Origin: Sphingobacterium bovistauri
Lineage (GTDB): Bacteria > Bacteroidota > Bacteroidia > Sphingobacteriales > Sphingobacteriaceae
Reading direction: 5' to 3'
Length of the DNA: 64,000 bases
Assembly: GCF_020295405.1 (NCBI RefSeq)
Contig: NZ_JADEYP010000011.1
Coordinates: 1 to 64,000, forward strand
The position numbers and the translations under genes are program-made. The notes under the pieces were generated by a model that was not told where the DNA came from, ran no database searches, and saw only the letters and a list, made by a program, of their open reading frames with translations. This document shows, one piece after another, positions 13,098-13,753 of this stretch (position 1 is its first letter; every line of letters starts with the position of its first letter).

Positions 13098-13169
13098 TAG
13101 CGGGAACCAGACTCGAACTGATGACCTTCGGGTTATGAGCCCGACGAGCTACCACTGCTCCATCCCGCA
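13098..13169 (-). tRNA. Initiator tRNA-fMet (CAT), copy 6 in transcription order
   Basis: A 72-base cloverleaf with anticodon CAT in the loop CTCATAA. Initiator hallmarks are present: three consecutive G:C pairs (29-31 with 39-41) in the anticodon stem, A11:U24 in the D stem, and no Watson-Crick pair at 1:72 (U opposite U). CCA is not encoded. The acceptor 7:66 pair is A:U. Confidence 0.95.
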
Positions 13170-13214
13170 TTATATTTTACCAAATCTAACCTCGCGTTAG
13201 ACTTTAAATTTTAG

Positions 13215-13286
13215 TAGCGGGGACCAGACTCGAACTGATGACCTTCGGGTTATGAGCCCGACGAGCTACCACTGCTCCACCCCGCA
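13215..13286 (-). tRNA. Initiator tRNA-fMet (CAT), copy 5
   Basis: Same cloverleaf and initiator hallmarks as the other copies. The acceptor 7:66 pair is G:C. CCA is not encoded. Confidence 0.95.
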
Positions 13287-13331
13287 TTATATTTTACCAA
13301 ATCTAACCTCGCGTTAGACTTTAAATTTTAG

Positions 13332-13403
13332 TAGCGGGGACCAGACTCGAACTGATGACCTTCGGGTTATGAGCCCGACGAGCTACCACTGCTCCACCCC
13401 GCA
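13332..13403 (-). tRNA. Initiator tRNA-fMet (CAT), copy 4
   Basis: The tRNA body is identical to copy 5 (acceptor 7:66 G:C). Anticodon CAT, three G:C pairs in the anticodon stem, no CCA encoded. Confidence 0.95.
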
Positions 13404-13448
13404 TTATATTTTGCCAAATCTAACCTCGCGTTAGATCTTAAATTTTAG

Positions 13449-13520
13449 TAGCGGGAACCAGACTCGAACTGATGACCTTCGGGTTATGAGCCCGACGAGC
13501 TACCACTGCTCCACCCCGCA
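13449..13520 (-). tRNA. Initiator tRNA-fMet (CAT), copy 3, G:U acceptor variant
   Basis: As the other copies, but the acceptor 7:66 position is a G:U wobble: it has the 5' base of the G:C copies and the 3' base of the A:U copies. It is probably still functional, and it looks like an evolutionary intermediate or a recombinant between the two types. Confidence 0.93.
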
Positions 13521-13565
13521 TTATATTTTGCCAAATCTAACCTCGCGTTAGATCTTAAATTTTAG

Positions 13566-13637
13566 TAGCGGGAACCAGACTCGAACTGATGACCTTCGGG
13601 TTATGAGCCCGACGAGCTACCACTGCTCCATCCCGCA
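13566..13637 (-). tRNA. Initiator tRNA-fMet (CAT), copy 2
   Basis: The acceptor 7:66 pair is A:U, as in copy 6. All initiator hallmarks are present and CCA is not encoded. Confidence 0.95.
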
Positions 13638-13681
13638 TTATATTTTGCCAAATCTAACCTCGCGTTAGACTTAAATTTTAG

Positions 13682-13753
13682 TAGCGGGGACCAGACTCGA
13701 ACTGATGACCTTCGGGTTATGAGCCCGACGAGCTACCACTGCTCCACCCCGCA
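13682..13753 (-). tRNA. Initiator tRNA-fMet (CAT), copy 1 (promoter-proximal)
   Basis: The acceptor 7:66 pair is G:C. This is the first copy in transcription order; its upstream flank differs from the conserved spacers except for the last bases before the tRNA, so the array's main promoter should lie between 13754 and about 13800. Confidence 0.95.

Follow-up and report, generated by a model that had tools for sequence, protein, structure and literature searches.

A tandem array of six initiator tRNA genes with structured spacers beside era in Sphingobacterium bovistauri

Why would a bacterium line up six nearly identical initiator tRNA genes, and what keeps them in place? The question is raised by a 64,000-nucleotide stretch of the Sphingobacterium bovistauri genome (assembly GCF_020295405.1, contig NZ_JADEYP010000011.1, positions 1 to 64,000; hereafter the window), in which a first-pass annotation had pointed to such an array. 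Our analyses of the array, its spacers, and its relatives make it quite probable that this is a dosage-tuned, polycistronic tandem initiator operon, unusual in its length and in its structured spacers. Literature searches on an initiator array of this kind returned no description among the matches listed.

The initiator array and its neighborhood

ARAGORN placed six tRNA-Met(CAT) genes, the sole tRNAs of the window, head to tail on the minus strand between 13097 and 13753, as had been claimed; they score 59.3 to 62.7 bits with the Rfam tRNA model, and no other Rfam family reached its gathering score in the window. Numbered in the presumed order of transcription, copy 1 lies at 13681..13753, copy 2 at 13565..13637, copy 3 at 13448..13520, copy 4 at 13331..13403, copy 5 at 13214..13286, and copy 6 at 13097..13169. 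The start-to-start steps of 116, 117, 117, 117, and 117 bp and the output of Tandem Repeats Finder (period 117, 5.7 copies, 98% matches) agree with the near-fixed 117-bp repeat noted earlier. All six copies carry the initiator marks ascribed to them: a CAT anticodon, three G:C pairs closing the anticodon stem (GGG/CCC), A11:U24, and U1 facing U72, which leaves no Watson-Crick pair at 1-72. By these marks the copies are initiator tRNA-fMet genes, whose products are predicted to be charged, formylated, and used in initiation. The missing CCA had been counted among the marks; none of the six copies encodes CCA, but its absence is unremarkable as a mark because Bacteroidetes tRNA genes normally lack it, according to an excerpt of PMC5143459.

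The near-identity of the copies holds as well, yet they are not identical. Three types differ at pair 7-66: copies 1, 4, and 5 have G-C, copies 2 and 6 have A-U, and copy 3 has G-U. The 3' part of copy 3 and the spacer downstream from it equal those of copy 2, and copy 3 may have arisen by recombination between the two other types or by a single mutational step. The exact anticodon arm, CGGGCTCATAACCCG, occurs at the six array sites and nowhere else in the 4.05-Mb, 71-contig draft genome, in which the array supplies six of the 63 tRNA matches. The same genome also contains five tandem tRNA-Asp genes at a contig end, a three-gene Val array, and Phe, Asn, and Gln pairs (L117 to L124).

Diverging from the array is era (13871..14749, plus strand; open reading frame listed from 13838), its ATG 117 bp from copy 1; we take it, from its sequence, to encode the Era GTPase of 30S assembly. 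Beyond the end of the array there is presumably a SusC-type gene, and beyond era lie what we take to be uvrC- and mrcA-type genes. The uvrC-like gene (15282-17081) presumably has a GIY-YIG domain, and we regard it as a repair gene and not as a free-standing nuclease cassette.

The neighborhood was compared across 81 loci, comprising the window and 80 relatives drawn from the 89 other genomes of the genus with a match; seven of the nine matched genomes left out have arrays that are split or lie no farther than about 360 bp from where a contig ends. In 71 of the 81 loci, era is divergent and lies about 108 to 385 bp upstream from the array, in one it is partially matched 949 bp away, and in nine it is not matched within the 1.4 to 1.7 kb of flank. 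Seven of these nine era-less loci (L012, L019, L022, L029, L031, L039, L047, L065, and L067) have an opposite-strand tRNA-Gln about 1.3 to 1.4 kb downstream. Outside the genus, era adjoins initiators in 13 of 20 loci, namely, in each of the seven that come from other family genera and in six of group g29, which has two fMet copies; it was not found beside the initiators in five g27 loci (with roughly 1 kb of flank), L188, and L196. The era-linked initiators of the other family genera (L189 to L195) form [fMet-Glu] repeats in six of the seven loci. Since era stands beside initiators outside the genus too, the locus is old, and multiplying fMet without Glu seems to be a development peculiar to the genus; the array itself would descend from an older initiator gene next to era that was duplicated in tandem.

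Structured spacers and transcription of the array

The five spacers of the window are 43 to 44 nt long and of three sequence types, and each contains a stem-loop on the minus strand (z of -3.6 to -3.9): at 13648..13674 in spacer 1 (13638-13680; z of -3.9), at 13533..13555 in spacer 2 (13521-13564; z of -3.6), at 13416..13438 in spacer 3 (13404-13447; identical in sequence to spacer 2), at 13299..13321 in spacer 4 (13287-13330; z of -3.6), and at 13182..13204 in spacer 5 (13170-13213; identical to spacer 4). Across 67 arrays of the genus, 142 of the 148 spacers under 90 nt fold better than their dinucleotide shuffles at a P value of ≤0.05, that is, with at most 5 of 100 shuffles folding as well. 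Per array, z averages -4.3 and lies below -2 in 62 of the 67; the five arrays above -2 (L012, L019, L022, L065, and L067) all belong to era-less loci.

In the 58 arrays whose helix has seven pairs or more, we counted 32 different inner seven-pair stems, which between them use every standard pair type. When arms were swapped between different stems, 52% of positions paired, against 100% within species by construction; the arms were compared directly since MAFFT misplaced them, and significance rests on the shuffle test. Stems most commonly have nine pairs and loops five bases, frequently GCGAG or GCAAT; the helix begins 3 to 5 nt past the called tRNA end in 44 of the 58 arrays, and the distance from the helix end to the next tRNA is most often 19 nt (28 of 58). 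The shuffle test and these comparisons together indicate that structural constraint acts on the stem in initiator arrays of the genus. The spacer stem-loop is thus conserved in structure and not in sequence, and it is new here; titles and opening lines of abstracts retrieved for spacer hairpins described none of this kind.

Stems are not confined to initiators. Four of eight other tRNA spacers tested in the same genome (Tyr-Gly, Asn-Asn, Gln-Gln, and Gly-Thr) fold at P values of ≤0.005, which led us to reject the idea that the stems are unique to initiator arrays; the remaining four gave one P value of 0.05, two of 0.06 to 0.095, and, for the Asp spacer, 1.0. The Gln-Gln stem has a terminator-like look. 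The fMet-Glu unit spacers of the other family genera fold at P values of ≤0.05 in four of six tested. Given these stems and the lack of any in g29 and in metZWV of Escherichia coli, the stem-loops are neither unique to tandem initiators nor required for them. What sets the initiator stems apart is their conservation across species, theirs being the one class so compared.

The array ends in a strong terminator-like stem-loop with a T-run, read from the sequence just after copy 6 (13058..13089, minus strand), and a candidate Bacteroidota-type promoter (TTG, 19 nt, AGATTTTG) precedes copy 1 at 13769..13798 on the same strand, with 7 of 9 letters of TTG/TAnnTTTG, which we take to be the Bacteroidota consensus. 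Across the genus, a terminator-like T-run of 5 or more follows 66 of 79 last copies versus 26 of 154 inner ones. We rejected leftover terminators as an explanation of the spacer stems on this ground; to the eye, moreover, the spacer stem of the window is unlike its terminator stem. Inner T-runs do occur in some arrays (L066, L072, L013, and L085).

The promoter signals bear on the earlier claim of one transcript. Scores of 8 or more of 9 were found before 35 of 80 first copies versus 5 of 148 inner copies, and these five are four spacers of the window and one of its sister locus L007. All five spacer stems of the window and one of L007 contain TAGATTTG, presumably a perfect match to the Bacteroidota -7 promoter element; four of the five score 8 of 9, with the element 11 nt before the next tRNA, versus 7 of 9 before copy 1. 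Six separate genes, each with its own promoter overlapping the spacer stem, would account for this, yet we hold that reading to be unlikely: TAGATTTG is in no other of the 154 spacers, no array besides these two reaches the score among the 148 inner spacers, and inner terminators are mostly absent. The claim of one transcript is therefore consistent with the genus-wide pattern of terminators and promoters but has to accommodate a candidate promoter element in every spacer of the window; as judged from these signals, a single transcript appears likelier than internal starts in this species.

In the operon that we favor, the six copies would be read leftward from the gap between era and the array and ended by the intrinsic terminator, and a stem-loop would part each copy from the next in the transcript. 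RNase P and RNase Z would then cut out the tRNAs, with CCA added afterwards. RNase Z is expected where tRNA genes lack CCA, and the genome encodes one, at 294.2 bits just above the curated cutoff of 292.95.

For the stems themselves, our favored guess is a role in processing or in protecting the ends of tRNA precursors. They might instead insulate neighboring identical tRNAs from misfolding with each other. Their near-universality in the arrays of the genus and their conservation in structure only would suit such a role, and when 12 whole arrays were folded at equilibrium, the probability of the cloverleaf with native spacers exceeded the shuffled mean in 10. The effect is small, with 1 to 6 of 15 shuffles reaching the native value in those ten arrays, and it runs the opposite way in the window and in L015 (11 of 15). 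The two-copy arrays of g29 and metZWV manage without stems, and stems also occur between unlike tRNAs of the window's genome. With effects that are small overall and of opposite sign in the window, an insulating role was not adopted, and we rate it as improbable. A wider proposal, which we put forward tentatively and would not yet bet on, is that the stem-loop may be an undescribed, structure-only punctuation of the tRNA operons of this group, most evident in the initiator array; it would direct or protect maturation and let the array lengthen copy by copy, with initiator supply tracking the rRNA operons. In the spacer stem-loops, the study of how Bacteroidota process their tRNA operons gains a concrete element that can be tested.

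Copy number and its correlates across the genus

The initiator count had been called unusually high, and it is. A scan for the exact arm matched 90 of 93 genomes of the genus (hand tally). Two copies were commonest (33 genomes), ahead of three (21), five (14), one (12), four (7), and six (2); three genomes had none, and G056 gave nine matches from an array divided between the ends of two contigs. None of the 392 genomes of a phylum sample exceeded the six of the window (hand tally), and only 10 had at least three, two of them from Sphingobacterium and five from g27; the exact-arm pattern misses some initiators, since 24 of the 392 genomes gave no match. The 233 genomes from other genera in a family sample had four copies at most (hand tally), as counted with a 13-letter pattern that makes occasional chance matches.

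How far such counts can be trusted depends on assembly. Two genomes with identical era DNA differ, with two copies in G004 (about 30 contigs; L010) and five in G005 (a single contig; L011), and draft assemblies seem to under-report or collapse such arrays, which calls for caution with tRNA counts in drafts generally. That the six copies of the window are themselves an artefact of short-read draft assembly, as the first-pass annotation had allowed, could draw on this misreporting, on the 71 contigs of the genome, and on N-gaps inside three of the arrays displayed. The draft error observed lowers counts, however, and the five spacers of the window are of three types. A single-contig relative, G051, has six copies too; its 5,329,010-base contig carries 88 tRNAs and nine 5S matches (two of them adjacent), and from the matching tRNA and operon numbers, among others, it is almost surely the PacBio strain ML3W. 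The artefact is thereby answered indirectly and seems very improbable: six copies are not an assembly invention, although the exact number in the 71-contig draft stays provisional.

Because drafts under-report, trends were analyzed in 24 genomes, each assembled as a single contig and represented by its era gene in the tree; 11 have two copies, nine have five, two have three, one has four, and one has six. Copy number is not static among relatives, ranging from 1 to 6 across the genus, plus one split case, and it does change between lineages, with 23 changes on the era tree of 71 loci. The 23 changes compare with a mean of 41.4 (least, 36) for shuffled labels, and the 24 single-contig genomes show 5 changes versus 10.9 (least, 7); the nine five-copy genomes among them are confined to two clades. 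Such stability within clades leaves the ongoing amplification that had been suggested without support.

The sequences of the spacers point to exchange between copies. In the 35 arrays that have two or more short spacers, identity within arrays averages 0.92, while identity between species falls from 0.94 (era identity of 0.93 and above) to 0.64 (era identity below 0.8). Identity within arrays was higher than that between species in all 444 of the most distant pairs (era identity under 0.8) versus just three of the seven closest (0.97 and above), and 42 of 71 multicopy arrays show no difference among their tRNA copies. The usual reading of such a pattern is that the spacers are homogenized within species by recombination, which would here take place between the copies of the array, and the result for the closest pairs indicates that homogenization is slow on the scale of sister species. 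Of the earlier view that copy number changes by recombination, the mechanism gains from this homogenization, but the sequences give no sign of present-day instability.

Initiator number follows the number of rRNA operons in the 24 genomes (Spearman coefficient, 0.95), and independent contrasts on the era tree retain the relation (r of 0.79; sign-flip P value of 0.028), with 5S matches within about 200 bp counted as one operon, a rule that applies to four genomes. The corresponding values are 0.91 (contrasts, r of 0.68, P value of 0.037) for other tRNA genes and 0.72 (r of 0.21, P value of 0.25) for genome size. With only 5 changes on the 24-genome tree and the tree of a single gene, the trend is strong in pattern and thinly based. 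The window's genome is off the trend plot because rRNA operons break its assembly, at least four of its five 5S matches lying at contig ends; at face value, its six initiators exceed the 2 or 3 of single-contig genomes with 65 to 66 tRNAs.

Tandem amplification or loss, with translation capacity under selection, fits these results; the tie to rRNA operon number favors the selection for initiation capacity that the first-pass annotation had proposed. Initiators may also simply ride along with the whole translation set, as total tRNA number rises too. A neutral array length would do without such selection: slippage and unequal crossing-over, to which near-identical repeats are prone, would let copy number drift, in keeping with the 23 changes among 71 loci and with the three copy types of the window, one of them possibly recombinant. 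The stability of copy number within clades and its tie to rRNA operons make such drift unlikely as the explanation. In the dosage-tuned operon that we prefer, selection would hold array length near a lineage-specific value, with initiator supply matched to ribosome number.

In excerpts of earlier reports, tRNA gene number is generally tied to rrn operons (PMC12943073), fast-growing Vibrio have high initiator numbers (PMC5143459), losing some initiator genes is deleterious to E. coli in rich media (Samhita 2014, cited in PMC9981150), and deletion of metZWV impairs E. coli growth under some conditions (PMC11480407). The matching of initiator tRNA to ribosome number has so far been argued mostly from E. 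coli; Sphingobacterium provides a natural series of 1 to 6 copies, usually at one locus, that follows rRNA operons and makes the question of dosage testable.

GIY-YIG cassettes in relatives and comparison with known arrays

A GIY-YIG protein of about 80 amino acids is encoded about 50 to 190 bp after the array in nine of the 81 genus loci (L114 of genome G081, L060, L026, L056, L078, L084, L014, L045, and L042), that of G081 matching Pfam PF01541 with an E value of 5e-15. At L114:1345-3017 the nuclease gene is followed by CTCATA-TCCGCCAGCTGGCGGA and then by an initiator 3' half, the unit repeating every 363 bp. The succession of GIY-YIG gene and palindrome, TCCGCCAGYTGGCGGA, is seen in G081 and in named loci such as L134, L139, L150, L159, L166, and L171. 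With its following C, the palindrome is present in 16 of the 93 genus genomes and absent from that of the window.

A scan of named genomes for CTCATATCCGCCAGYTGGCGGAC returned 44 stretches, Bacteroidota by title save for one Balneolales record. At 22 of their 60 sites, a GIY-YIG frame stops no more than 60 nt upstream, and for 20 of those 22 an intact initiator arm stands 335 to 556 nt upstream. In 14 of the 20, as compared by eye, the sequence that follows the palindrome is identical, up to the tRNA end, to the 3' half of the host's own species-specific initiator; one has a single mismatch, and five differ or break off. The unit, which recurs within or next to initiator genes across Bacteroidota, looks like an undescribed, tiny mobile cassette that would enter initiator genes and leave an intact copy upstream. 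Literature on GIY-YIG proteins and tRNA genes, as represented by titles and the first lines of abstracts, included no bacterial initiator cassette among the matches listed.

Degenerate initiator-like units, in which the palindrome replaces the 3' side of the anticodon arm, lie between intact copies in L060, L077, L026, and L084 and explain the 200- to 241-bp steps there; a similar unit in L078 lacks the exact palindrome. In L088, L095, L097, L102, L108, L110, and L111, the palindrome precedes 3' halves of another tRNA-like sequence, mostly as TTCATA-palindrome followed by GCAGTTCGATCCTGCTCC or a close variant, and the cassette family may therefore use a second CAT-type tRNA.

Phage T6 provides a precedent for tandem amplification of tRNA genes, which an excerpt of PMC13096335 describes as shown to be SegB dependent, and a GIY-YIG nuclease stands at some arrays related to that of the window. 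A homing-type nuclease of this family aimed at initiator genes might likewise have driven amplification here. The T6 amplification is in a phage and not on a chromosome, however, and the window has neither a free-standing cassette (best tblastn E value of 9.4) nor a palindrome beside its tRNA repeats. Among the loci read, those with a cassette have 2 to 3 intact copies, and those with five or six copies have no cassette. As the window lacks a cassette and the whole genome lacks the palindrome, we did not adopt the nuclease as the cause, and we consider it highly improbable.

A close known counterpart is metZWV, whose initiators are likewise arranged head to tail, with a period of 110 bp and a terminator-like end. 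It differs in having three copies with encoded CCA, where the window has six without, and in its 33-nt spacers, which fold at 0 and -0.7 kcal/mol with no stem-loop, versus spacers of 43 to 44 nt with one. We chose short unstructured spacers and encoded CCA to define a metZWV-type array, and the window has neither. A further E. coli copy elsewhere is presumably metY, and in 5,375 of 5,426 E. coli genomes initiator places number from 1 to 8, with a median of 4.

Other Bacteroidota share different parts of the arrangement. In g29 (Bacteroidia), fMet likewise stands beside era, but there are two copies with short spacers, and the four distinct spacers have no significant stem. The [fMet-Glu]n units of the other family genera share the era neighbor and, in the four of six noted above, folding spacers; they differ in the Glu tRNA that alternates with fMet in six of seven loci. 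The arrays of g27 (class Bacteroidia) differ from that of the window in having no era in the flank read and in their weaker and shorter stems; they share with it tandem initiators, of which each of the five loci read has 3 to 5 at a spacing of about 110 bp, and short spacer stems, with 7 of 11 distinct spacers folding at P values of ≤0.05 and an eighth at 0.055.
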